Positions 1,015 to 64,000 of a stretch of DNA of 64,000 nucleotides are shown here, one piece after another (position 1 is the stretch's first letter; each line of letters starts with the position of its first letter). The stretch spans positions 62,001-126,000 of the forward strand of contig VCJN01002444.1 of the NCBI GenBank assembly GCA_006384855.1, written 5' to 3'. The position numbers and the translations under genes are program-made. The notes beneath the pieces are model-generated. The model had not been told where the DNA came from. It saw only the letters and a program-made list of their open reading frames with translations, and did no database searches. The DNA is from Tetraselmis striata (lineage: Eukaryota > Chlorophyta > Chlorodendrophyceae > Chlorodendrales > Chlorodendraceae).

Positions 1015-1853
1015 GTTGGCGGCGTGAGGCTGTAGGGCTTTTGACGATCAGCTGCGGTTCGTGGTGGTAGCAGAAGGTGCTCGTTGAGGGTGTGGTGGGA
1101 CTGATAACGGGCTGGTTTCACGGAGACGGATGTCAACTTCTTCGCTGCTGTAGTGCGTTGGGCGGGCGAGTGCCGGTCAGCAGACTGGCCATGGGCACAT
1201 GTGGGTGAGTGACACAGATACATCCCGCCAAATAAACGTAATAACCACGATATATTTGTTACAACAAATCACATGATGATAAGGATGAAACGGATGATGA
1301 CGCCCCGCGCAGGCGTTTGTACCCAGGTACTCGTGTCATTCAGCTGCGTCCACCCCATCGTCATCAAAATCGAGAGCTCGTCGCGCCGCAGAGCGCACAT
1401 GCATAAATATAGCGACTACTGTACCCGTACAAATCGTTATGGTCGCCACATTAATAAGTATACTTACTGTAGCAATATCCGCCCGGCGTGTCCCGGGGCG
1501 GGTATGTGCATTAGCCCTTCGGGGTTCGAATGAGGCAATATTTATTACATAAATAAGGGTTTCCACAAAAGCGCACTACAAACAGAACCAGCAGCAACTA
1601 TGAAATGGGGCAATGGTCTACGGGCAATGCCAGACCTACGACTGCAGTTGGCGCACGAGGTCAAGTGCTGGCACATGGGGCGGCTTATGTATTGATGATT
1701 TGGTACTGGACTACTGGTACCGGTGATGATAATAGTTCCATCAGTACTGTTTCTGTCGCTGTGACTCATCAGCAGGTAGGCTGTAGTAATGAGTAATGAC
1801 CAGCGATGATCGTACGTACTGTATGTAATCCTTAGTACCGCAGCGAGTAGAAC
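1015..1853. other. Region without recognised gene, upstream of HMG exon
   Basis: This stretch lies between the HMG-protein start codon and the left LTR of the Ty3/gypsy element. It must contain the promoter and 5' leader of the HMG gene if that gene is alive. Open frames on both strands are short and compositionally odd, and none resembles a known protein. I see no RNA gene or repeat here. Confidence 0.5.
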
Positions 1854-2080
1854 TGTGAGGATATATCCTATACCCTCACTAACCCTAATCAACCATAGCA
1901 CACATTAAGGCGCGTAGCGCGCGCGCCACTTGTAGTGGCTGCGCCTGCGCCCTGTCGTCCGCACTGCGCCCGCTGATATATCAGCGCGGCGCCCTGCCGG
2001 ACTGTAATAATAAGACAATACTCACCCTCACAACCTAGGAGTAGCACAGACTCTTGCCACCATAAGCGCATTCCCTCACA
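1854..2080 (+). repeat. 5' LTR of Ty3/gypsy element
   Basis: This 227-bp terminal repeat starts TGTGAGGATAT and ends TTCCCTCACA, giving the usual TG...CA ends. It aligns over its length with 9905-10102, with a few substitutions and an internal length difference: the left copy has an extra stretch around ATATATCAGCGCGG. The LTRs are therefore diverged, and the insertion is not very recent. Confidence 0.9.
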
Positions 2081-2199: not shown

Positions 2200-3105
2200 C
2201 AATTCCCCCGCCGAGACCTGTCATAGGCGACTGCCCCGCCGATTCGCGACTGCCCTTCTAGAAGGCAGCACGGAATACCATAACCTGTCCTTGTCGTGGA
2301 CTCCACCTTACCGTAACTTCACCTTCTTATCCGACACCCGATTACTATATACCTGCAGCTTCAGCGCCAACTGAGCGCCTCATATGCGCCTGTAGCGTAG
2401 CCACCGCGGGCGCCGGCAATTACCCCGCCGGAAGACTGTAACGGGCTTTTCCGAAAGCCACTGAATCATAACGATTCTGCCAAGAGGCAGCATTGGACAG
2501 TCGAAACTTATCGACGACTGAATCCACGACCATAACTCCGCGCTTGCTGTCAGCGGGAGCTTATCATATATCCGCCACACGATGTCGGCGCTACCATCAA
2601 CTCTACTTTCTCGCCCGGAGCTTGGGGATTACCGGGCCGCGACGCTACCTGAGAAATTCGGAGCGTCGTAGAAAAAAAATACTATAACAGGCCAACAGGC
2701 AGCACTATACACCAGAACCCGCTCGACCACTGAGTCGAGCTTATCATAACTCCGCCTTGTCTTGAGGCGAATGCATACAATATCCCTCTGCGCTACCTTC
2801 TCACTTGGAGCGCTACACCCATGATACTCGCGCTTGTCGTGGGGCAACTGCGGGTGTCGGCAATTACCCCGCCGAAAAACTATAAGAGGCTTTTCCAGAA
2901 GCCACCCTGCCAAAAGGCAGTACTATACAGTCGAACATTCTCGACTATGGAATCGAACGAATCATAACTCCGCCCTTTCATAAGGCGGAAGCATACTATA
3001 TTCTGCGCCACCTCGGCGCTACTTTCAGCCCGGAGTTTGGACATTACCGGGACGCGCGACGCTGCCTGTAGAACTCGGAGCGTCATTATTCTTTTTTTGT
3101 ATGAA
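2200..3105 (+). repeat. Diverged repeat blocks in the element's 5' internal region
   Basis: The phrase GGCAATT(A/C)CCCCGCCG recurs near 2203, 2418 and 2858. The last two begin blocks of roughly 250 bp that share, in the same order, a GGCTTTTCC(G/A)GAAGCCA-like hairpin, CTGCCAA(A/G)AGGCAG, a GTCGAA...TCGAC inverted repeat, 'ATAACTCCGC', 'CCCGGAG(C/T)TTGG..ATTACCGGG' and 'CTCGGAGCGTC'. The unit is therefore an old duplication rich in short perfect hairpins. It lies in the untranslated leader of the retrotransposon, where RNA structure can matter for packaging or translation. That role is inference. Confidence 0.65.
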
Positions 3106-3408
3106 TCGAATTGAGGTAAGCGGCCTATTAGGTAAGCCACTTCCACTCCCACCTTACCTTATCTTCTTTGCCAAAAAATATGAATAACATAACAACCATC
3201 GAACGTCAGCATATCATTGTCGGAACCATACATCACTGTTGCGTCGCTTATTACGATATTCAAACCATATTGAGCCCGAAGAGGCATGTGACGATATCCA
3301 AACCATATTGATCCCGAAGAGGCCTGAAATCAAACCATATCCAGCAGGTTGAATCCTGACTGTAATGACTATATTTCGAACAATATCACAGCCTCAATGG
3401 CAGCTGCG

Positions 3409-7660: not shown

Positions 7661-7900
7661 TGAATCATATTGAATCATATTAAACCATATTGAATCATAT
7701 TGAATCATATTGAACCATATTGAATCATATTGAACCATATTGAATCATATTGAATTATGTTGAACCATATTGAACCATATTAATCGTATTGAACCATATT
7801 GAAGCAACATATTAACCATATTGAACAGTTACTTGCGAGACTTCGCAAACATATTATCATTTGTACCTGAACCATATTGACCATATTGAACAGTGATTAT
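7661..7900 (+). repeat. Decamer minisatellite replacing the RT core
   Basis: About 15-20 imperfect tandem copies of TTGAATCATA / TTGAACCATA run from 7661 to about 7830, decaying into spaced copies up to about 7900. The array stands exactly where about 1 kb of RT should be. Coding sequence resumes at RNase H after 7905. The same array, reversed, is in the inverted copy at 13310-13512. Confidence 0.9.
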
Positions 7901-7904
7901 GCAT

Positions 7905-8913
7905 AAACCCTAATGCCGGACAGCTGCGTCATGTCGCTTACCCGGCAAAGGTCCTGAGGGGGGCGCAACTGCGCTACTCCACTTACGATACTGAATTTCT
8001 GGGTGTAGTGATTGCCTTACAACATTGGCGACATTACCTGGAGGGATGCAAACATTTTACCGTAGTCACTGACCATACAACCCTCCGACATCTGCCAACC
8101 CAGGAAAAGCTCAGCAAAGAACATGCTGGCTGGTCCCAAATTATATCACCATATATGAACAATATTAATATTGTACATAAAAAGGGATCTCAAAATATGG
8201 CAGATGCACTCAGCATATTACCAGATCTAACAGATCTGAAGGTATCGTTAGATGCATACTATATGCAGACCTTTCAGAAGGATCTGGAGCACATCACTGA
8301 ATGGCTCAATCTTACTACTGTCTCAGTGCAGTTGCACAAACAATTCCTCAACCATATCAAACTAAAATATATGCAGGATCCAAAACTGAACAAGGCGAAA
8401 CTATCTCCTGGAGTACGATATGATTACCATACTGATCTGAACCATATCATCAAAGAACACCATAATTACCATACTGATCTGAGCCATGATGATGATGATG
8501 AACTCAAAAAGAGCATCATCAGAGAACATCACGATATTAAGACGGCTGGCCATAGCGGTATACTCAGGACAGAGAACCTGATCAAAAAAAATTTTTGCTG
8601 GCCGCACATGCACCAAAACATAAAATCATATATTCGAAACTGTAAAGTCTGCAAGCTGACGAAACAACATACGCATGCCCCAGCAGCGGCTTTGCAGCCA
8701 CTGCCAACACCAACTGTACCATGGGAATATTTCAGTCTTGACTTTATCACAAACTTACCATCAGTGGATGGTTATGACTGTATTGCCACTTTGTGGATTT
8801 GTTCACAAAGCAGGCACACTTTGTACCATGCCAAAAAGCCATCTCAGCTCCAGAACTGGCACAACTGTACATCAAAACTATATACAAACTCCATGGTCTC
8901 AGTACCTGTATGA
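7905..8913 (+). pseudogene. RNase H and integrase N-terminal part of the Ty3/gypsy element
   Basis: After the minisatellite the frame reads the Ty3/gypsy RNase H (PAKVLRGAQLRYSTYDTEFL, VVTDHTTLRHL, then NMADALS). It is followed by the integrase zinc finger, with His at 'REHHD', His at 'AGHSG' and the pair C-K-V-C, and by the first integrase Asp in SLDFITNLPS. It then goes out of frame near 8800, and the catalytic core continues in the next frame from 8793. RNase H removes template RNA during reverse transcription; the zinc finger helps integrase multimerise. One frameshift breaks the protein. Confidence 0.88.
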
Positions 8914-9869
8914 TAGGAGACAGAGATGTCAAGTATACATCATCATATTTCCAAGAACTGCTCAAACAGCTTGGCACAACCTTAAACCTCAGTACTGCTC
9001 ACCATCCGCAGACTGATGGTCAGACTGAAATATTGAATAAGATAATTGAGCAGTTGCTCCGCGCATTCTGCTACAATAACCAGCAGGAATGGGTGAACTA
9101 CCTATCCCTTGCTGAGTTCAATTACAATAACACAGAATCGTCCACAACAAAATTTATTCCATTCCAGGCAATATATGGCTTCCATCCTCGGTTGCCAATA
9201 GATATTGTAAACCCCAAAACTGGAGTGAGAGAGATTACCATAGACATTCTGTCAAAAATACAGGATATACACAATCTGGTGCATGAAAATATCATAATTG
9301 CCAAAGAATACGAAAGGCACTACTATGATAAAGACAATAAGCAGCCGATAACGTTTCAGATCGGTGATAAGATAATGATAAAAACTGACGATATGATCAT
9401 AAGAGGACAGAAGTGTCCTAAGCTCAAACGACGATATGTAGGACCATATGAGGTCATCGAACAGGTGAACCCTCAGGCCTACAGAATACAATTACCACCT
9501 GAGCTTGAGTGCCACCCAGTGTTCCATGTCTCAAATTTGAGACTCTGGGATACTATATCTGCGCAAACAGAAATTCCGGATGCCTTGATTGGCAGGCAGA
9601 CGCGCGGAACTGATGACCCAATCATTGCGGACATCACTGACTGTAAATTGGCACTATACCCCAGACTGTATGCAAAGGGCAAAGCCTTGCTGTTCAAAGT
9701 AAGGTTCCATAATTTTCCAGCAACAGGAGATGACTGGATGCCCTATGAAACGATGCGGTATTCACCGGTGATGCAGCATTGTATGCTGTCAGAACGATAT
9801 AAACATATCTCGACCTCACCAGCATACCGTGCTGCTAAGGCGAGCCACCCGCAAAGGTTTCCACCGTGA
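8793..9869 (+). pseudogene. Integrase core, GPY/F module and chromodomain-like end
   Basis: This 358-residue frame carries the second catalytic Asp (IGDRDVKYTSSYF), the HHPQTDGQTE block with the downstream Glu (ILNKIIEQLL), the GPY/F module (RRYVGPYEVIEQ...FHVSNLRLW) and an end segment LFKVRFHNFPATGDDWMPYE. That last piece is shaped like a chromodomain, which would make the element a chromovirus; chromodomains steer integration to marked chromatin. The frame is open to its natural stop at 9869. Because it is offset from the zinc-finger frame, the integrase as a whole is broken. Confidence 0.88.
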
Positions 9870-12039: not shown

Positions 12040-13534
12040 ACGATTCCTGGGACGATTCTGTGTTATTGTAATTGAACTCAGCAAGGGATAGGTAGTTCAC
12101 CCATTCCTGCTGGTTATTGTAGCAGAATGCGCGGAGCAACTGCTCAATTATCTTATTCAATATTTCAGTCTGACCATCAGTCTGCGGATGGTGAGCAGTA
12201 CTGAGGTTTAAGGTTGTGCCAAGCTGTTTGAACAGTTCTTGGAAATATGATGATGTATACTTGACATCTCTGTCTCCTATCATACAGGTACTGAGACCAT
12301 TGAGTTTGTATATATTTTTGATGTACAGTTGTGCCAGTTCTGGAGCCGAGATGGCTTTTTGGCATGGTACAAAGTGTGCCTGCTTTGTGAACAAATCCAC
12401 AAAGTGGCAATACAGTCATAACCATCCACTGATGGTAAGTTTGTGATAAAGTCAAGACTGAAATATTCCCATGGTACAGTTGGTGTTGGCAGTGGCTGCA
12501 AAGCCGCTGCTGGGGCATGCGTATGTTGTTTCGTCAGCTTGCAGACTTTACAGTTTCGAATATATGATTTTATGTTTTGGTGCATGTGCGGCCAGCAAAA
12601 ATTTCTTTTGATCAGGTTCTCTGTCCTGAGTATACCGCTATGGCCAGCCGTCTTAATATCGTGATGTTCTCTGATGATGCTCTTTTTGAGTTCATCATCA
12701 TCATCATGGCTCAGATCAGTATGGTAATTATGGTGTTCTTTGATGATATGGTTCAGATCAGTATGGTAATCATATCGTACTCCAGGAGATAGTTTCGCCT
12801 TGTTCAGTTTTGGATCCTGCATATATTTTAGTTTGATATGGTTGAGGAATTGTTTGTCCAACTGCACTGAGACAGTAGTAAGATTGAGCCATTCAGTGAT
12901 GTGCTCCAGATCCTTCTGAAAGGTCTGCATATAGTATGCATCTAACGATACCTTCAGATCTGTTAGATCTGGTAATATGCTGAGTGCATCTGCCATATTT
13001 TGAGATCCCTTTTTATGTACAATATTAATATTGTTCATATATGGTGATATAATTTGGGACCAGCCAGCATGTTCTTTGCTGAGCTTTTCCTGGGTTGGCA
13101 GATGTCGGAGGGTTGTATGGTCAGTGACTACGGTAAAATGTTTGCATCCCTCCAGGTAATGTCGCCAATGTTGTAAGGCAATCACTACACCCAGAAATTC
13201 AGTATCGTAAGTGGAGTAGCGCAGTTGCGCCCCCCTCAGGACCTTTGCCGGGTAAGCGACATGACGCAGCTGTCCGGCATTAGGGTTTATGCATAATCAC
13301 TGTTCAATATGGTCAATATGGTTCAGGTACAAATGATAATATGTTTGCGAAGTCTCGCAAGTACCTGTTCAATATGGTTAATATGTTGCTTCAATATGGT
13401 TCAATACGATTAATATGGTTCAATATGGTTCAACATAATTCAATATGATTCAATATGGTTCAATATGATTCAATATGGTTCAATATGATTCAATATGATT
13501 CAATATGGCTTATGGTAATCGTCCCAGGAATCGT
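12040..13534 (-). mobile_element. Inverted partial copy of the Ty3/gypsy element (RNase H to mid-integrase)
   Basis: On the minus strand this stretch repeats the left element from its minisatellite (about 7670) to the middle of the integrase core (about 9140), with very few differences. It includes the same loss of RT, the same minisatellite and the same frameshift near the first integrase Asp. It has no LTR. It is bracketed by a perfect 18-bp inverted repeat, ACGATTCCTGGGACGATT at 12040-12057 and its complement at 13517-13534. Part of that 18-mer (AATCGTCC) is native integrase sequence; the rest is not in the parent copy. Sharing the RT loss means it derives from the defective copy or from a common defective parent. 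Confidence 0.9.
13310..13512 (-). repeat. Inverted copy of the decamer minisatellite
   Basis: Tandem CAATATGATT / CAATATGGTT decamers on the plus strand are the reverse complement of the array at 7661-7900. Spacing and variants are very similar, including the same spaced copies near the RNase H side. Confidence 0.88.
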
Positions 13535-13820: not shown

Positions 13821-16800
13821 ATTATTGGTATGGCCGATGTACGGCTCACGGCACGGCGCCGTGAAACCGTGCCGCTGCGAGTGCTCATCCGGACGAGGTG
13901 CGGCATGTTGCCGCGTGGGTGGCTCGACCGACAGATGCTACCCGATACGCGCTTCCAGCGCAGCGCATTGGAACGGCTCCGGCGCCGTGCTTTCGGCACA
14001 TATGCATGAGTTATGCGTCGCGTCACGGTTTGTTGTTCTACACCGCGCCACGGCACCCGGCAGTCACCATGAATAGCCGCGGCGTGTTGCGTCGCGTTTG
14101 TCTCGTCCAACACGTGCTTTCCCAAACGCGCGTCTCCTCGGCGCGCAATTTGATACGATGCGGTGTAGCCCATGCCGTGCACAATGGCGGGCACATATCG
14201 GCACGGGCGCAATACGGTTTATTGGCCACCCCGCGGAACGGCTCCAAGCGGTCCTTCGGAGTGCGGCGGCGTGATGCAACGTGTTTGCCTCGCCCGGCAT
14301 ATGCTAGCCCCCATGTGCGCCCCCATTGCGCGCTGTGTGAGGCCTACGGTAATCCGCGTGCCGCGGTCTGTCAGACTTGCCATTTGCAGAATGGCCCTAG
14401 TGCGCCGCCCCGCGGAACGCGTACAAGCACTCATCCGGACGAGGTGCGGCATGTTGCAGCGTGGTTGGCTCGTCCGAAAGATGCTACCCGATATGCGCCC
14501 CTCAGCGGCGCGCATTGGAACGGCTCCGGCACCGCGCGCGCGCCGTGCTTGGGGCACATATACATCCGTTATGCGGCGCGTTACGGTTCACACACCCTCA
14601 CCGCGCAACGGCCGCATGCGGTCATCAAGAATAGCCGCGGCATGTCGCTTCACGTTTCTCTCGTCCGACACATGCTTGCCTATGCCCGCGTCTCTTGGAC
14701 GCGCGATATGAACGCTCCGGTGTAGCGCGGGCCGTACTGCGTGGGCCAGCCCACATTATTGGTGTGGCCGATGTACGGCTCACGGCACGGCGCCGTGAAA
14801 CCGTGCCGCTGCGAGTGCTCATCCGGACGAGGTGCGGCATGTTGCCGCGTGGTTGGCTCGACCGACAGATGCTACCCGATACGCGCTTCCAGCGCCGCGC
14901 ATTGGAACGGCTCCGGCGTCGCGCGCGCCGTGCTCGCGGCACATATACATGAGTAATGCGTCGCGTCACGGTTTGTTGTTCTACACCGCGCCACGGCACC
15001 CGGCAGTCACCATGAATAGCCGCGGCGTGTTGCGTCGCGTTTGTCTCGTCCAACACGTGCTTTCCCAAACGCGCGTCTCCTCGGGGCGCATTTCGTACGA
15101 TGCGGTGTAGCCCATGCCGTGCACAATGGCGGGCACATATCGGCACGGGCGCAATACGGTTTATTGGCCACCCCGCGGAACGGCTCCAAGCGGTCCTTCG
15201 GAGTGCGGCGGCGTGATGCAACGTGTTTGCCTCGCCCGGCATATGCTAGCCCCCATGTGCGCCCCCATTGCGCGCTGTGTGAGGCCTACGGTAATCCGCG
15301 TGCCGCGGTCTGTCAGACTTGCCATTTGCAGAATGGCCCTAGTGCGCCGCCCCGCGGAACGCGTACAAGCACTCATCCGGACGAGGTGCGGCATGTTGCA
15401 GCGTGGTTGGCTCGTCCGAAAGATGCTACCCGATATGCGCCCCTCAGCGGCGCGCATTGGAACGGCTCCGGCACCGCGCGCGCGCCGTGCTTGGGGCACA
15501 TATACATCCGTTATGCGGCGCGTTACGGTTCACACACCCTCACCGCGCAACGGCCGCATGCGGTCATCAAGAATAGCCGCGGCATGTCGCTTCACGTTTC
15601 TCTCGTCCGACACATGCTTGCCTATGCCCGCGTCTCTTGGACGCGCGATATGAACGCTCCGGTGTAGCGCGGGCCGTACTGCGTGGGCCAGCCCACATTG
15701 GTATGGCCGATGTACGGCTCACGGCACGGCGCCGTGAAACCGTGCCGCTGCGAGTGCTCATCCGGACGAGGTGCGGCATGTTGCCGCGTGGTTGGCTCGA
15801 CCGACAGATGCTACCCGATACGCGCTTCCAGCGCCGCGCATTGGAACGGCTCCGGCGTCGCGCGCGCCGTGCTCGCGGCACATATACATGAGTTATGCGG
15901 CGCGTCACGGTTTGCTGTTCTACACCGCGCCACGGCACCCGGCAGTCACCATGAATAGCCGCGGCGTGTTGCGTCGCGTTTGTCTCGTCCAACACGTGCT
16001 TTCCCAAACGCGCGTCTCCTCGGGGCGCATTTCGTACGATGCGGTGTAGCCCATGCCGTGCACAATGGCGGGCACATATCGGCACGGGCGCAATACGGTT
16101 TATTGGCCACCCCGCGGAACGGCTCCAAGCGGTCCTTCGGAGTGCGGCGGCGTGATGCAACGTGTTTGCCTCGCCCGGCATATGCTAGCCCCCATGTGCG
16201 CCCCCATTGCGCGCTGTGTGAGGCCTACGGTAATCCGCGTGCCGCGGTCTGTCAGACTTGCCATTTGCAGAATGGCCCTAGTGCGCCGCCCCGCGGAACG
16301 CGTACAAGCACTCATCCGGACGAGGTGCGGCATGTTGCAGCGTGGTTGGCTCGTCCGAAAGATGCTACCCGATATGCGCCCCTCAGCGGCGCGCATTGGA
16401 ACGGCTCCGGCACCGCGCGCGCGCCGTGCTTGGGGCACATATACATCCGTTATGCGGCGCGTTACGGTTCACACACCCTCACCGCGCAACGGCCGCATGC
16501 GGTCATCAAGAATAGCCGCGGCATGTCGCTTCACGTTTCTCTCGTCCGACACATGCTTGCCTATGCCCGCGTCTCTTGGACGCGCGATATGAACGCTCCG
16601 GTGTAGCGCGGGCCGTACTGCGTGGGCCAGCCCACATTGGTATGGCCGATGTACGGCTCACGGCACGGCGCCGTGAAACCGTGCCGCTGCGAGTGCTCAT
16701 CCGGACGAGGTGCGGCATGTTGCCGCGTGGTTGGCTCGACCGACAGATGCTACCCGATACGCGCTTCCAGCGCCGCGCATTGGAACGGCTCCGGCGTCGC

Positions 16801-17199
16801 GCGCGCCGTGCTCGCGGCACATATACATGAGTTATGCGTCGCGTCACGGTTTGTTGTTCTACACCGCGCCACGGCACCCGGCAGTCACCATGAATAGCCG
16901 CGGCGTGTTGCGTCGCGTTTGTCTCGTCCAACACGTGCTTTCCCAAACGCGCGTCTCCTCGGGGCGCATTTCGTACGATGCGGTGTAGCCAATGCGGTGC
17001 ACAATGGCGGGCACATCTCGGCACGGGCGCAATACGGTTTATTGGCCACCCCGCGGAACGGCTCCAATCTGTGCCAGCAGCCGCGGTAATACAGATGGGG
17101 CGAGTGTTATTCGGAATGAGCGGTCTTTCGGAGTGCGGCGGCGTGATGCAACGTGTTTGCCTCGCCCGGCATATGCTAGTCCCCATGTGCGCCCCCGAA
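13821..17199 (+). repeat. Higher-order tandem repeat, about 940-bp unit, about 3.6 copies
   Basis: Units begin with ATTGGT(A/G)TGGCCGATG at about 13824, 14758, 15697 and 16636, giving periods of 934-939 bp, and the copies are nearly identical. Inside each unit three diverged subunits can be seen. Each has a GTGCGGC(A/G)...TGTTGC or CGTGATGCAAC phrase, a GGTTGGCTCG / GTTTGCCTCG step, a GATGCTACCCGAT / ATATGCTAGCCCCC step, and a CGCGGAACGG or GAATAGCCGCGGC phrase. The apparent long frames on both strands overlap each other and repeat with the unit, so I treat the array as noncoding satellite-like DNA. The last unit is interrupted at 17068-17119. Confidence 0.9.
17068..17119 (+). other. 52-bp fragment of organelle/bacterial-type SSU rRNA inside the satellite
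   Basis: The insert contains GTGCCAGCAGCCGCGGTAAT followed by ACAGATGGGGCGAG and TGTTATTCGGAATGA. This is the universal 530-loop of 16S-type small-subunit rRNA. The bordering satellite sequence is continuous once the insert is removed: GGCTCCAA joins GCGGTC as in the other units. The base pattern after GGTAATAC is of bacterial/organelle type, not eukaryotic 18S. It is far too short to be a gene; most likely it is a chip of mitochondrial or plastid DNA captured at a repaired break. Confidence 0.85.
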
Positions 17200-50463: not shown

Positions 50464-50649
50464 TGATCTAAACTAGTTTATGGGGTTTCCATCCTTGACC
50501 TAACCGCTTTTCAGCTACAAGTGCTGCGCAGTGGTACGGGAGCTAGTAACTGTTGTTGCGCCCTTGTTGGGTGCAGCACGAGTAGACATAAAAGCAGCCA
50601 GAACAGCTGAGCCTGCCATCTTCCAGTTTTCGCTGCGTTCCACGCAGCG
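50464..50649 (+). repeat. A1 repeat of the YR element
   Basis: This 186-bp sequence, from TGATCTAAACTAGTTTATGG to CGTTCCACGCAGCG, is identical to 53360-53545 by eye. It is likely to carry the promoter for the gag-like frame that starts at 50763. Confidence 0.92.
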
Positions 50650-50762
50650 ATGTAAAAACTGTCTCGTAACCCGTTGCGAGCAAGGTCACCCCAGGTTGTT
50701 CAAGACCACACCCGGCTCGCCATCCGAGTGTGATATTCTCGTCCGTACGTCCGTGCGTTACT

Positions 50763-51618
50763 ATGTCAGATGGAGAAGAACCCGTCGTTGAGCCGACGCT
50801 CACGTCGTTGCAAGCAGATGTGCGTGCATTGGCTACAGCTGTGGCACAATTGACGGCTCGTGATCGCGCTGTTGATGGAGAAGGGGCACATGGCTCCGGC
50901 TCCGGGCAGCGCTTCGCGGGACAGCCGACAGGCAGCGGGGGAGCCGCAGAGCGCCCCGACTTGCTAGAGCTAGCTCAGAGCGGCCGTGTCGGAGCAAAAT
51001 CCGTGAGTGCCGAGGATGATTACCTCGCGGTGCCAGAGCTACTGCAGAGAGCAGAGTCTGGTTACGAGGCCGTTCGACCGGTCAGCCGAGTGCCTGGACT
51101 TTTCCCGTTGAGCACCGACCTAACGAACGAGTACCTCAAGCAGGATGACCGGCGTCTGCCGGCCCAGGAGGAGTACTTGTGGATGTCGTGTTTCGGGGCT
51201 CACATGGCCGCCCCTTTTCGTGGCGCTCGACGAGCTGCTACCTTACGTCCCCACCACTAACCAGGACTTCACCCCCTACCTCGCGAGAGCTCGGAATCAC
51301 GCCGAGGCCATCGACAAGGCGTTTCGTTTTCGTCTAGCCTTCCTGCGGAGGCTGAATGAGATCAAGCGTGTGCACGGTGACCAAGGCGTTCTGGATGTGC
51401 TGCGAGCTCAGCATTTTCAGCCCGCTGCGGAGCATCTGGGTTCTGCGATTTTTGGGGACCTGATGAGAGACTACGAGCGTCGTGTCTTCGAGGCGACCGT
51501 TGCCAGCAGTGCCAAGGCGACCGCTACTTCTCGAGTAGCGGCTGCAGCTGCAGGTCGCGGGCGTGGGCGAGGACGTGGTGGTGGACGTGGACGCGGCCGC
51601 GAAGGTGAGCACGAATGA
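50763..51618 (+). CDS. Gag-like protein of the YR element, two frames joined by an apparent +1 shift
   Basis: The ATG at 50763 opens a frame with an N-terminal heptad-like helix (LTSLQADVRALATAVAQL) and a Ser/Gly-rich linker, which runs to 51260. Homology-like continuity moves to the +1 frame at CCCCTTTTCGTGG (about 51213-51225), where FVALDELLPYVPTTNQDFTP continues into a helical, capsid-like segment and ends in a Gly/Arg repeat (GRGRGRGG), a probable nucleic-acid-binding tail. A TGA at 51616 stops it. The recombinase lies in the same frame beyond that stop. The frame change may be an indel or a real +1 shift site; the sequence alone cannot tell. Confidence 0.65.
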
Positions 51619-53280
51619 TGGCGTGGGGCGCCGCTCGTCGGAGCTGCAGGAGCCTTGCGAGGCCACTTTTCGGTGACCGCCGCAAAACGCACCCTTGCAG
51701 CTCAACGGCGGGATGAGCGCCCTGTGTCAGGACCTGACCCCCCCACCTTACAGACTTCATTTAGACCTTCCTCGGTGCGGCGCTTCTTACAGCTACAGCC
51801 GAGTGCGGCTCAACCATCCGTACACCTGCACATGGCGGCTCAACCATCCGCCTTTCTTACAACCCCATCTCTGCGTTCGTCGGTTGTTACACTACGTGTT
51901 ACAACCGGTTCGCAACGACCAAGTTTCGCGCGTGTACGTTACGCACGGGACAGGCGCTACGAGCGCGACGGGCGCGCGGGGCGGCCCTCTTACCTGAACC
52001 TAGCCCCGCAAACCCGTACTGAAGCTACTGCAAACCCGTCCAGCAACTACCGGCCAAACGCCGGGAACCTAACCGCTGCTGCCGAGTACTTTGCGAACAG
52101 TAGCCGTGCCAGTGGAACTCTGTCAGTAAAACGACGCACTTACGTAATCGACGAGCCCGCAGCTATCGCTCCATGGGCTGCGTCACTGCGATCTCGGCTG
52201 CAGGACGCGTTCGGCTCAGACGAGCTAGGCCAGCGGACGCTGGACCTGCTCTCCAGCTCCCTCAGCGCGCAAACCCTCAAGAGCTACGCCGGCAGACTGT
52301 CTCAGTTCGCTGAGTTCTGCCACGACTCCGAGAACATCAGCCCGCTAGAGGCGACTACTGCTACTGTTGTTCGGTACGTTGCCTGGATCGGGGAGCGAGG
52401 TCACATCGCAGCTAAGTCGCTGCAGCCCTACCTGTCTGCCATCAACACCTTCTTCGAGCTGCACAACCTCGTCCCGATCGCCAAGGACAGCCTACACCTC
52501 ACTTCGGCAAGGCGTGGGTTAATGTTGCGGCAGCGCCGGCTGGACGCTGCCCCCTTGCGTGTCCCTCTGCCTGCGGATGTAGCTTACCGCTTCGTCTCAA
52601 AGGCCGAGCTAATTGTGTCTGCTCCTTATCCAGAGTCCCACCTCGACTACCGAGCCCTCTTGGCTTCGGTTGTCAACTTCCTGTTCTTTGCCAGGGGCCT
52701 TACTGGCGTCTCCTGTCGAGCGCAAGATGTACATGTCGACACCTACAACATCACCTTGCAGGTCTACCGCGAGAAGGGTCGCGCTGGCCGTCGGGGACCC
52801 GACGACCTGCGCGTACTGCTCCTTCCGGTGTCCGAGCACCCTCGAGTGGCACGACTCTTACGCTACTTCATCGACAACGTCCAGTCTGTCCCCCTGGTTA
52901 CTGTTGGCTTGGCTGCCTCCAACTTCTGGGCTGTAAATGTGGCTGAGCAGTCAAAACCTTGGACTGCGGCTACGATGTCAGACTGGTTGTCTACAGCGGT
53001 CAACCTAGTCAACGCAGCCCCTCCTGCTGGCACTTCCTGGACTTCACACAGTCTGCGCAAGGGCGCAGCCTCTGCTGCAAACGCCATCGGAGCGCCACTG
53101 TCCCACATCCGCTACCAAGGCGGTTGGGCCACTAACTCCGATGTCGTTTTGGACTACATCGACCCCAACGTTCTTCCTTCTCCTGGCGCGTGGTTCTTCT
53201 TTGGACACATCGCCCCCCTCCGCCACTTCCAAGTCCAACAGGACTCCGCAGCGGTGGCCTTCCCAGTGCCTCCTTCATGA
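51619..53280 (+). CDS. Tyrosine recombinase of a DIRS-group retroelement
   Basis: This long open frame has its first in-frame ATG at 51833, though it could instead be made by read-through of the TGA at 51616. The core has an SAM-like helical N-domain (LSAQTLKSYAGRLSQFAEFC), the first catalytic region at FFARGLTGVSCRAQDV, the H-x-x-R box TSHSLRKGAASAAN, then IRYQGGWATNSDVV with the conserved W, and the nucleophile Tyr in LDYIDP. The order and wording match DIRS/Ngaro-type recombinases, which insert the cDNA circle without target-site duplication. All catalytic positions except the first Arg, which I place only tentatively, are clear. No stop interrupts the domain, so it may be functional. Confidence 0.9.
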   Translation, partial: WRGAPLVGAAGALRGHFSVTAAKRTLAAQRRDERPVSGPDPPTLQTSFRPSSVRRFLQLQPSAAQPSVHLHMAAQPSAFLTTPSLRSSVVTLRVTTGSQRPSFARVRYARDRRYERDGRAGRPSYLNLAPQTRTEATANPSSNYRPNAGNLTAAAEYFANSSRASGTLSVKRRTYVIDEPAAIAPWAASLRSRLQDAFGSDELGQRTLDLLSSSLSAQTLKSYAGRLSQFAEFCHDSENISPLEATTATVVRYVAWIGERGHIAAKSLQPYLSAINTFFELHNLVPIAKDSLHLTSARRGLMLRQRRLDAAPLRVPLPADVAYRFVSKAELIVSAPYPESHLDYRALLASVVNFLFFARGLTGVSCRAQDVHVDTYNITLQVYREKGRAGRRGPDDLRVLLLPVSEHPRVARLLRYFIDNVQSVPLVTVGLAASNFWAVNVAEQSKPWTAATMSDWLSTAVNLVNAAPPAGTSWTSHSLRKGAASAANAIGAPLSHIRYQGGWATNSDVVLDYIDPNVLPSPGAWFFFGHIAPLRHFQVQQDSAAVAFPVPPS

Positions 53281-53333
53281 CTTGGCGCTACCCCTTCTCC
53301 GTCAATCCACCGCTCTCTACGTTCGCTCAAGAC

Positions 53334-53359
53334 TGGCAAAACCAGACTCAACTTTGAAA
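53334..53359 (+). repeat. B1 repeat of the YR element
   Basis: This 26-bp sequence, TGGCAAAACCAGACTCAACT followed by TTGAAA, lies immediately before A2 and matches B2 at 53640-53665 exactly. Confidence 0.85.
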
Positions 53360-53545
53360 TGATCTAAACTAGTTTATGGGGTTTCCATCCTTGACCTAAC
53401 CGCTTTTCAGCTACAAGTGCTGCGCAGTGGTACGGGAGCTAGTAACTGTTGTTGCGCCCTTGTTGGGTGCAGCACGAGTAGACATAAAAGCAGCCAGAAC
53501 AGCTGAGCCTGCCATCTTCCAGTTTTCGCTGCGTTCCACGCAGCG
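53360..53545 (+). repeat. A2 repeat of the YR element
   Basis: This is the 186-bp twin of A1. It follows B1 with no gap, giving the joined B1A2 block that defines split direct repeats. Confidence 0.92.
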
Positions 53546-53639
53546 CCCCCCCCTGACTCCGTTTTCCCTCCACGCTTTTCGCTAAACCTTCCTGCCAATT
53601 TCGGCTCTTGACCGTGTAAAACAGCCTGCGCGACCTTTT

Positions 53640-53665
53640 TGGCAAAACCAGACTCAACTTTGAAA
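53640..53665 (+). repeat. B2 repeat, right end of the YR element
   Basis: This 26-bp copy of B1 lies about 95 bp after A2. The sequence after it (CGGCAATTACG) differs from that after B1, marking the element's right end. Confidence 0.85.
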
Positions 53666-62050: not shown

Positions 62051-62269
62051 GGGCTACTGTGTGGTTTGCCGAGCTCGATCTTGGGGCGCGACGCAGGAGG
62101 GCACCAACCGGCTCGAGGGGCAGACGAGGGGCGGTCCAGAAGCCGGGGCCGGGCACCGGGCCGGAGCGGGAGCCGAAAGGCGACCACGGGTGTCACTTAG
62201 GAGGACCGATGCCGTCGCGCACGCCGAGTCGGCCGGGCGCGAAGTTATTGTCCGGGGGCGAGAGCGGGA

Positions 62270-62505
62270 ACACACCCACCTCACGCACCATCTCCGAGAG
62301 GCGTTGGTGCCAGCTCCGATCGGGCCAGAAGGCAAGATGGCGGTGGCTGGCGCGCCGGAGGTGTGGAGTTTAATGACGATATCGTCAATGCGGCCCCATG
62401 GAAGGTTGTACCGGTTGTGCTCGCGACGCCACGCATCGTCGAAAAGGCGTAGGCTGTCGGTAGCTTCACTGCATGGGTGGCGCCAGCCTATCGCGGGAGC
62501 CGCGC
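62270..62505 (-). pseudogene. Methyltransferase-like domain following RNase H in the DIRS element
   Basis: Text from FDDAWRREHNRYNLPWGRID to VIKLHTSGAPATAILPSWP (the second part in a neighbouring frame) matches the Dam-like domain that DIRS-group pols carry after RNase H. There the signature normally reads N-P-P-W; here it is N-L-P-W. The frame changes near 62340. The loss of the first Pro would be expected to harm catalysis if the domain were an active enzyme. Confidence 0.65.
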
Positions 62506-62599
62506 ATTCTCCATTGTAGCGAAGCGGTTGATGGTGTGGCAACTTCTGATATAGTCGAGGTGGTTGAAGTGGCATAAGTTGAACGCCTGGTCGGCGTAG

Positions 62600-63010
62600 T
62601 CGATGTCGCGGCTGAGACGGCCAGCCCAAATGTTCGCCGTGGTTTGCACTTGATATAGCGCGAACGAATGGATTTGTCGTTGGTGTCGAAAATAACCGAC
62701 AGCTTCCGTAGCTCGGCCATATTTAGAGGGGAGCGGCGGGAGGTGAGGTTGGCGAGGATGTAGACCACCTCCATGTTGCCCTCGTGAATCAGCACCTGTC
62801 GACCTCGCAGCTCTACGAGGAAGGTAAGCACTGCGTACCAGACAGCCGTGAGCTCCTTGTAGGCTACGTGCAGCTCGCGGTGGCCGTCGTGCCATAAGCC
62901 GCGCATGTCGGTGGTCTCGCCGAGGACGGCGCCCCATCCGTAGCCAGAGTTGTCGACGTGCATGTAGACGGTCTTGACGGGCTTGTAGTTGGAGCGGCCG
63001 TTGCTGTGGG
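62600..63010 (-). pseudogene. DIRS-type RNase H
   Basis: The landmarks are VYMHVDNSGYGWGAVLG (first Asp, in the position of D-A-S-x-x-G-W-G), HVAYKELTAVWYAVLTF (the Glu), then QVLIHEGNMEVVYILANLTS. In that last motif the usual D-N-x-x-V has become E-G-N-M-E-V-V, so the third catalytic Asp appears lost. The domain ends RSRYIKCKPRRTFGLAVSA, in place of the usual WIPREENxxAD. Its position directly after RT fits DIRS pol. Confidence 0.75.
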
Positions 63011-63449
63011 TAGGGATCGCGGCCCACCACTGGAGGCCACGCCGGAGTTGGTGCGTCGTCTTGTCGCGCCCGCTCATCATGAGTCCTTCGTGCGGAGCAC
63101 GTCGTGCAGCCCGCGGAGGTAGACCTGGGCAGGCTTGATGGCGAGGAACATGAAATGGGCACGACATGCCTAGGACGAGGGCTCTCGTACATGTAGCCAT
63201 CGTTTGTCCCGCTTAGCGCGGCGGATGAGACTGAGGGTTGTTGCAACGAGCGATCCGAGTTTCTGCTGAGGGGCCCGAATCGTACTGTTATGCGAGTCGA
63301 ACTTCATGCCGATATGTGCTCCAGTCGTTGCACCGCCTTCCACTGGCCATTTTCGGGATGTCGGATGAGGCCTAGCTTCCCCTAGCTTTCCATGAGACCT
63401 AGATTAGCCATATGATGCGGTCTCGCACGGCGTAGGCATGTGCTCGACT

Positions 63450-64000
63450 TCAAGCGGAGAACATGAAGTCTTCCATGTAGGGGAGCATGCGGCAACCGCG
63501 GAAGTGCCGGTTTGTGTTTGGCGTCGTCACATGCTGGGCTTGGACCGACGCACTCCATGGGGGGTTATTGTGAAGTCGGGACGACGCAGGTGGGCGGCGG
63601 TTGAACGCGGCAGTGAAGGAGCATAAATAGTAGGGCCATGGGCTCCTGCACATGGAGAGCCCCGCCAATCGGTAGATCTTGCCTCGGTAGTCAACGGTGA
63701 AATTGTCTCGGTCCTCGGGGGCAACGCCGACGGCGTAGAAACCGCCATGCAGGTCCATGGAGAAAATATAGCCGCCGGGCCGAACTAGATGACGCAGCCG
63801 GGTGAGGGTCTCAAAGCTCAAGTCCCGCTCCTCACAATACCGGTTGAGGGGTCGCATGTCGATGATGGGCCGCCACTTGTTGACGCTTGGCTTGGGGACG
63901 AGAAGGAGTCGGGAGACCCACCGCGAGCAGTGGCCTTCCTCCCACGCTCCGCTAGCCAAGAAGCGAGCAGCCAGCTCGCCGTCCACGAAGCGTAGCTGGT
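63450..64000 (-). pseudogene. DIRS-type reverse transcriptase, N-terminal part
   Basis: The frame shows SRLLLVPKPSVNKWRPIIDM followed by RPLNRYC, then LRHLVRPGGYIFSMDLHGGF, in which the first catalytic Asp sits, then YAVGVAPEDRDNFTVDYRGK and YRLAGL. The D-L-H-G-G-F wording in place of D-L-x-x-A-Y/F, and the RYCE...FETL step, are typical of DIRS-group RTs. After MCRSPWPYYL the frame drifts. The polymerase Y/V-D-D motif is not visible downstream in the right place (MLPYMEDFMF near 63480 may be its relic, with M-E-D). The left part lies beyond the window. Confidence 0.8.

Follow-up and report, generated by a model that had tools for sequence, protein, structure and literature searches.

The genome of the green alga Tetraselmis striata contains two families of compact mobile elements that carry complementary sets of genes between similar termini, and these families probably constitute a two-component PAT-like retrotransposon (order DIRS) in which the Gag-YR and the RT elements each move with proteins encoded by the other. 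We came upon the first family through a single copy in a stretch of 64,000 bp of contig VCJN01002444.1 (the window). For the stronger proposition, that the Gag+YR and RT-RNase H elements form an obligate pair, a bipartite retrotransposon whose parts recognize each other through their ends in a manner reminiscent of multipartite viruses, we consider the chances to be about even.

Structure and genes of the Gag-YR family

The copy in the window (positions 50464-53665) has the order A1-ORF1-YR-B1A2-spacer-B2 and is without a reverse transcriptase (RT) gene (Table 1). Its long repeats are of the split direct type found in PAT-like elements (A1 - B1A2 - B2); inverted terminal repeats with an internal complementary region, as in DIRS1, were not found, the long repeats being direct. 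A1 and A2 are identical at 186 of 186 positions and B1 and B2 at 26 of 26, which for exact repeats of such length far exceeds chance, and the B1/A2 junction has the same sequence as the B2/A1 junction predicted for circularized ends. The 3' terminus of A1 is a hairpin with a 7-bp stem (CGCTGCG-TTCCA-CGCAGCG), and the base that follows B2 is C in the window copy and C or T in all 21 copies compared, i.e., the window copy and 20 others fetched on purpose.

Table 1. Positions in the window of the element's parts and of two related features
Feature	Position	Strand	Remarks
A1, left split direct repeat	50464..50649	+	186 bp; starts TGATCTAAACTAG
ORF1, gag-like, basic RG-rich tail	50763..51618	+	terminal TGA at 51616-51618
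YR open frame	51619..53280	+	continues the ORF1 frame past its stop; first in-frame ATG 51832
B1, split repeat	53334..53359	+	26 bp, TGGCAAAACCAGACTCAACTTTGAAA
A2	53360..53545	+	copy of A1 without differences
Spacer	53546..53639	+	94 bp; C-rich tract at its start
B2	53640..53665	+	right end of the element
Degraded PAT-like RT-RNase H stretch	62196..63998	-	runs to the window end; outside the element
Homologue (90%), without an insertion, of the site that copy L021 occupies	1853..2080	-	flanks join seamlessly

An earlier note on this DNA had described a compact, apparently recent YR element that has split direct repeats, identical in both pairs, an uninterrupted recombinase frame and gag-like and recombinase proteins as its sole products, and that depends on a borrowed RT for any movement by cDNA. 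All of this holds, the repeats being of PAT type, and the layout is repeated in the 20 further copies; what has to be revised is the intactness of ORF1, which in the window copy has a frame change near 51.2 kb, and the apparent isolation of the element, which belongs to a very large family.

ORF1 is open (284-291 aa) in 16 of the 21 copies and resembles the gag-like ORF of the RT-bearing element L030 (128 aa aligned at 28% identity; E 2e-4, or 0.003 when another copy is used), while a comparison with Pfam returned nothing above the cut-off (best E 0.091). YR is open from 51619 to 53277 (553 codons), and its tyrosine recombinase domain carries the boxes HSLRKG and DYID; it matches Phage_int_SAM_1 at 5.9e-8 and, below the cut-off, Phage_integrase at 0.0015. 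It is related to the YRs of PAT/DIRS elements, with 39% identity over ~360 aa to those of the RT-bearing split-repeat elements L030 and L034. Both genes are under purifying selection as judged from dN/dS (seven pairs per gene in all), which between subfamilies is 0.11-0.17 for ORF1 and 0.07-0.09 for YR; higher values were obtained for one pair within subfamily 2 (YR, 0.42) and for pairs within subfamily 2 or involving the recombinant copy L027 (ORF1, 0.17-0.21). In the stretch between ORF1 and YR, substitutions number 3, 1 and 2 by codon position, which is no codon bias, and the 5' part of ORF1 gives 6, 9 and 8 in the same tally, from which L026 was left out for its many indels and in which variants counted only if present in at least two copies. 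Expression of YR past the ORF1 stop may involve read-through, splicing or an internal start; a spliced intron linking the two genes, suggested by a possible GT...AG pair noted by eye on either side of the stop, was dropped as a specific proposal.

The family is very abundant (1,057 YR sites and 1,090 B1-A2 sites with at most two mismatches), and all 21 copies compared are compact, with no space for RT and no encoded RT-RNase H. An old relative, with proteins ~60% identical, is likewise compact and RT-less, with the same gag-YR junction and a YR that is 56-68% identical in long pieces. It appears, then, that the RT-less form is an old, self-perpetuating lineage, and the view of the element as an intermediate, put forward in the earlier note, is not supported, given this relative and the purifying selection on both genes. 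A1 equals A2 in 18 of the 21 copies, and at A position 79, a base that marks the subfamilies, they agree in all 21; such agreement would follow if either repeat served as template for its partner. Recombinant copies have a single breakpoint in common (group majorities from 17 of the 21 copies). Four single-A loci that were fetched proved to be older, mutated copies, and one of the match lists was confined to matches below 93% identity. Patterns from the 5' part have higher counts than those from the 3' part (A, 2,863 vs B1A2, 1,090; ORF1 end, 1,573 vs YR, 1,057), but the patterns are unequal in degeneracy, and widespread 3' truncation was dropped as a reading of this excess. Searches for related proteins gave no result in phage records and none that was confirmed in viral and prokaryote contigs.

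Complementary families and one-piece relatives

The second compact family is the mirror image of the first, in that it carries RT-RNase H between similar ends. The complete copy L043, which is 3,049 bp long, shares its repeat layout with the Gag-YR element (its own two A repeats, 179 bp, are 100% identical to each other, as are its two B repeats, 26 bp) and has a single 763-aa RT-RNase H frame (RVT_1, 1.3e-16; RNase H, 9.4e-6), and no gag or YR was detectable in it (best E 0.83). A 155-aa piece of the RT-only protein matches at least 82% at 150 of 150 scored places among the matches listed, of which 29 fall within a 763-aa frame whose matched portion is free of stops; since three of the 150 listed loci were read (L043; L013, complete but decayed; and L017, partial), the absence of gag and YR is established for few copies. 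The complementary gene sets thus lie on separate elements with matching termini, as judged from the one intact complete RT-only copy. At L013 a Gag-YR element starts directly at the base next to the RT-only B2', an exact abutment at a B/A junction, and at L039 an RT-only B2' is followed, as seen by eye, by Gag-YR spacer plus B2 and A1. The degraded stretch at the window end aligns piecewise with the RT-only protein, at identities of 40-61%.

One-piece PAT-like elements with gag, RT-RNase H and YR exist in the same genome (L030, L031, L034 and L035; L036 bears RT but is interrupted). The earlier note had proposed to search the genome for RT-bearing relatives with the same A/B repeats; the termini of these one-piece elements are different from those of the Gag-YR element. 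Over B plus 30 bp of A, Gag-YR and RT-only termini have 45 matches in 57 columns, as compared with 38 in 61 against the RT2 one-piece family; over B plus 20 bp of A the two compact families score 27 with each other and 3-10 with any one-piece family. This likeness is mostly through A (when B is taken by itself, the RT-only score is 11 against Gag-YR and 9 against RT2), and at the junction nearly all family pairs exceed nearly all shuffles, as kin would. A stem-loop ends A in four of five element types, being weaker in RT1, and a C-rich tract lies 3' of A2 in all five (Gag-YR, the old compact copy, RT-only, RT1 and RT2). Different A/B repeats in all relatives, which the earlier note would have held against its account, were thus not found.

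Movement of the two components and its alternatives

Empty sites, another object of the earlier note, were found, and insertion is seamless where L021 is aligned with its homologue in the window and L014 with its homologue at L017. Other homologues align with small gaps (L014-L019, 3 bp fewer; L009, 3 bp more), small differences (L024) or, for a second L021 homologue, 23 bp fewer; the L015 and L027 alignments were too poor to use. No target site duplication was present at any aligned insertion site.

The window element would be the Gag+YR component of a PAT-like tyrosine-recombinase retrotransposon, whose RNA would be reverse transcribed in trans by RT-RNase H from a separate RT-only element. 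The cDNA ends would be joined as B2/A1 in a circle, a step enabled by the B1A2 stretch, and the YR of the Gag-YR element would integrate both kinds of circle seamlessly and without target site duplication, Gag and YR thus being provided in trans to the RT-only element. We infer this partnership from termini, gene content and adjacency. The circle model of PAT/DIRS replication is, in the part of the literature represented by PMC5633606, described as not fully proven for DIRS-1. The RT-only family with its similar termini is a likely source of RT; a one-piece element with Gag-YR termini may lie outside the listed matches, and the RT1 and RT2 one-piece families could be additional suppliers.

That RT1 or RT2 is the actual supplier, the Gag-YR element being a non-autonomous PAT-like element with its own Gag and YR and the RT-only element another such derivative, strikes us as unlikely, even though the one-piece families provide for it: 21 of 73 RT1 protein matches lie within a stop-free 849-aa frame (the L034 family), and a 551-bp piece at L021, from an RT2-derived element in which neither RT nor YR is intact, has matches at 40 scored places, two of which belong to L021 itself. 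RT-less PAT-type elements thus seem to be mobilized in trans in this genome, which also favors the two-component reading. Against supply by RT1 or RT2 stand the low junction scores of RT1 and RT2 relative to the mutual score of the compact families, and the RT-only family itself, which is abundant, has many open frames and would itself need a YR.

Still less probable is that reverse transcription has been given up and that YR excises or copies a DNA circle that reintegrates in Crypton-like fashion with relic retroelement ends. The selected YR, the lack of RT in the copies read and the seamless insertion would suit such movement, as would a head-to-tail array in C348 with a period of ~2.92 kb, inferred from match positions; selection on the gag-like ORF as well, the concerted evolution of A1 and A2, the cis features common to RT-bearing families and the very high copy number speak against it. 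So does the absence of any solo A-spacer-B among 40 scored places: a full B1 precedes 39 of them, and the 40th, in C159, has a B1/A2 junction.

That the two halves arose recently by deletion from a still extant one-piece element with the same termini, with no stable division of labor, is very improbable: YR does lie in the open frame of the ORF1 stop, as would be seen after removal of an intervening part, and the recombinant copies attest that recombination occurs, but the old relative already has the RT-less junction, each of the 28 perfect A-A match pairs of element size (among the first 100 matches listed) spans 2.9 kb (2,876-2,949 bp), and dN/dS between RT-less subfamilies is far below 1.

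Relation to known systems

Retrotransposons are normally autonomous, or are parasites after gene loss. The two families described here complement each other in gene content, resemble each other at their ends, are both abundant and include many copies with open frames, and, if they are mutually dependent, a retroelement genome would be divided into two cooperating mobile parts, in which the sharing of Gag, RT and recombinase in trans, the stability of the split against cheaters and the formation of PAT/DIRS circles become testable. TOC1 of Chlamydomonas is similarly RT-less with split repeats, but is not known to carry YR or gag genes in intact form. Gag-only LTR retrotransposons such as TR-GAG likewise retain Gag and obtain RT in trans, but they have LTRs and are integrase-based, and they are not known to retain a recombinase gene or to have an RT-only mirror element. 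Engineered two-component retrotransposon vectors, as far as described in PMC2923131, also take proteins from a separate element, but are man-made, whereas the reciprocal split described here is natural. Cryptons resemble the Gag-YR element in having YR without RT; in the part of the literature represented by PMC3212892 their direct repeats are short (4-6 bp) and long repeats are lacking, unlike the 186-bp and 26-bp split repeats and the selected gag-like ORF found here, where YR is not the sole gene. There is also a likeness with the PAT-like elements of the DIRS order, e.g., Pat1, Kangaroo of Volvox and TOC3 of Chlamydomonas (in part PMC3266345, PMC4157794), which, to the extent covered by PMC3266345 and PMC8226300, share the split direct repeats A1-B1A2-B2, a YR, a gag-like ORF (here a candidate one), the lack of target site duplication and an occurrence in green algae, and from which the present system differs in that RT-RNase H is on a second element with similar termini.

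Structure and abundance of the Gag-YR family

The Gag-YR element, which encodes a gag-like ORF1 and a tyrosine recombinase (YR), has the features that the earlier note claimed for it: its two A repeats (186 bp) are identical, as are its two B repeats (26 bp), reverse transcriptase (RT) is absent from the whole element, and the recombinase frame is uninterrupted. The frame of ORF1 continues open past its TGA and includes YR (see table). ORF1 of this copy is broken near 51.2 kb. The YR matches an integrase in PHROG (2e-5) and, in Pfam, Phage_int_SAM_1 (5.9e-8) and Phage_integrase (0.0015, under Pfam's cut-off); its match to Cre is weak (0.006).

Coordinates of the window Gag-YR element and of the complete RT-only copy L043 (C735:89200-92700)
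Locus	Feature	Position	Remarks
Window	Gag-YR element	50464-53665	Order: A1, internal region, B1 abutting A2, 94-bp spacer, B2
Window	ORF1	50763 to 51616-51618	Start ATG, closing TGA
Window	ORF1 frame past TGA	open to 53277	Includes YR; first ATG of YR frame 51832
Window	Invariant stretch	51739-51813	75 bp, between ORF1 and YR domain
L043	A1'	169-347	179 bp, 100% to A2'
L043	Single frame	613-2901	RVT_1 1.3e-16; RNase H 9.4e-6; Dam-methylase sub-threshold
L043	B1'	2906-2931	26 bp, identical to B2'
L043	A2'	2932-3110	179 bp
L043	B2'	3192-3217	26 bp

Across the genome (224 Mb, 2,903 contigs), the A2-spacer-B2 sequence was scored at full length in 40 places; 39 have a full B1 directly upstream, and the last (C159) shows the B1|A2 junction in a separate pattern search. 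An rbcL in the same genome looks green-type, and the host is therefore probably a green alga. With at most two mismatches, the A start occurs at 2,863 sites, the ORF1 stop region at 1,573, the B1|A2 junction at 1,090 and the YR segment at 1,057. All of 21 copies (that of the window and 20 others chosen for the purpose) are 3.19-3.22 kb long and lack RT; ORF1 is open in 16, YR in 16 and both in 13. Among the first 100 A-start matches listed, 28 perfect same-strand A pairs of element size are always spaced 2,876-2,949 bp apart, leaving no space for an RT, and the sole closer pair (968 bp, C165) lies between two adjoining elements. On C348, at about 0.8-11.4 kb, the match positions of three patterns recur every 2.92 kb or so, from which we infer a head-to-tail array of Gag-YR units with A in common.

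The RT-less plan looks old, because older copies and a more distant relative have it too. L032 (96%), found by YR profile search, and L038 (minus strand, 85%) retain both ends and an unchanged plan, and L039 (86%) has unchanged ends and an internal deletion. The relative in C1417 ("old Gag-YR") is 56-68% identical in the long pieces of YR and about 60% in the main ones of ORF1; its ORF1-YR junction is the same, its 26-bp B repeats are identical, its spacer is at 92%, and it has no RT.

The 75-bp invariant stretch is without variation in all 21 copies, in contrast to the variable third codon positions elsewhere, and may possibly be a splice or regulatory signal. Two other repeats lie in the window: inverted arms at 7681-9143 and 12050-13512 (1,463 bp each, 99% alike), with frames that by eye resemble integrase and RNase H, apparently an LTR-type retroelement in inverted double arrangement, and a tandem array at 13824-17196 of about 940-bp units, the inner ones 99% alike and the first 64% in the 300-bp stretches compared.

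Insertion, selection and recombination

Empty sites, which the earlier note had suggested looking for, were found for L021 at window 2080-1853 and for L014 in L017, with flanks joined and nothing duplicated or lost. Other homologues have small gaps there: 3 bp fewer for L014 against two L019 places and 23 bp fewer for L021 against a second place in the window, 3 bp more for L009, and small differences for L024. No target duplication was seen in any aligned homologue, the L015 and L027 alignments being too poor. B2 is followed by C or T in all 21 copies; two positions before A1, 18 copies have T and 3 have A.

With L026 left out, substitutions at codon positions 1/2/3 number 16/4/58 in YR; in ORF1 the 3' part has 4/3/29, and the 5' part (6/9/8) lacks such a bias. 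For subfamily 1 against others (five pairs per gene), dN/dS ranges over 0.11-0.17 in ORF1 and 0.07-0.09 in YR; for the other two pairs, within subfamily 2 or involving the recombinant L027, the values are 0.17 and 0.21 in ORF1 and 0.42 and 0.12 in YR. The two A repeats are identical in 18 of the 21 copies and the two B repeats in every one; the base at position 79 of A is subfamily-specific, yet A1 matches A2 there throughout. L010, L022 and L027 have in common one sharp lineage switch near 52.3 kb, compatible with either template switching or DNA recombination.

Relatives that encode reverse transcriptase

The earlier note had called for relatives with RT between gag and YR and the same repeats. 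Four loci (L030-L033) were read among the YR places from a profile search, and two, L030 and L031, are one-piece elements that combine a gag-like ORF, RT-RNase H, YR and split repeats. The whole B|A junction groups the L030 family (RT1) with a second one-piece PAT-like family (RT2, L034) and apart from Gag-YR. Their YRs are 39.6% (L030) and 34.8% (L031) identical to that of the Gag-YR element; both B repeats are present in L030, and the L031 sequence ends before B2. L033 (C396:39900-45900) is unrelated; it has a phage-type integrase frame and a second frame that we take to be terminase-like, and is possibly bacterial contamination of the assembly.

The L030 RT gave 73 match rows at 68 scored places, 21 rows falling in a stop-free 849-aa frame, the RT2 family, whose layout is visible in L034 and L035 (right end without B2). 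L036 is a third, interrupted, RT-bearing element. RVT_1 matches the RT of L030 at 5e-17 and that of L034 at 7e-12. At L034:5824-6588 the B2 of one RT2 copy is followed at once by a second copy, which gives a B|A junction in tandem. L021 contains a small RT2 relative without intact RT or YR; at L021:4167-7211 two RT2-derived elements, neither with RT or YR intact, stand tail-to-tail. A 551-bp piece of the small element recurs at 40 scored places (89-100%, two being L021's own), which we read as an indication that such RT-less elements are copied in trans here.

The RT-only family came from L013 and L017, loci chosen for their Gag-YR copies, which also contain RT stretches terminating in a B'A' junction like that of Gag-YR. 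Of 2,088 first-look candidates for 155 aa of the L013 RT stretch, 150 places were scored; all are at least 82% identical, and in 29 the matched part of a 763-aa frame is stop-free. L043, the one complete copy read, gave no gag or YR hit (best E 0.83) in tblastn searches with the two Gag-YR proteins and, from one-piece elements, two gag-like ORFs and two YRs.

Matching termini and a probable partnership

Over B and 30 bp of A, Gag-YR has 45 matches in 57 columns with RT-only and 38 in 61 with RT2. Over B and 20 bp of A, Gag-YR scores 27 with RT-only, 9 with RT1 and 5 with RT2, RT-only scores 3 with RT1 and 10 with RT2, and RT1/RT2 scores 16; over the first 30 bp of A, Gag-YR/RT-only scores 20 against 2-4 for others. 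B alone divides the families poorly, since Gag-YR/RT-only scores 11 there against 6 (Gag-YR/RT1), 6 (Gag-YR/RT2), 2 (RT-only/RT1) and 9 (RT-only/RT2). The whole junctions fall into two groups, Gag-YR, old Gag-YR and RT-only on one side and RT1 and RT2 on the other. A C-rich stretch lies 3' of A2 in all five types; A ends in a stem-loop in Gag-YR, old Gag-YR, RT-only and RT2, and in a weaker one in RT1. In L013 the first base of the Gag-YR element directly follows RT-only B2', and in L039 (read partly by eye) B2' is followed by Gag-YR spacer and B2, then by Gag-YR A1.

The DIRS replication model is, according to PMC5633606, proposed and not fully proven. Under it, the RNA of each element would be reverse transcribed by the RT of the RT-only element, with Gag and YR supplied by the Gag-YR element; B1A2 would guide the joining of cDNA ends, and YR would insert the circle. 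The parts of the two elements and their match are observed, and protein would flow between them. The pairing is not described in the available portions of DIRS, PAT-like and Crypton texts (PMC4157794, PMC3266345, PMC3212892, PMC8226300, PMC5633606, PMC12477816), nor is such a pair named in open-access work on DIRS, PAT-like and RT-less elements, covered mostly by title. An open-access search for bipartite or two-component retrotransposons led to accounts of engineered vectors and of deletion derivatives from which a SINE arose.
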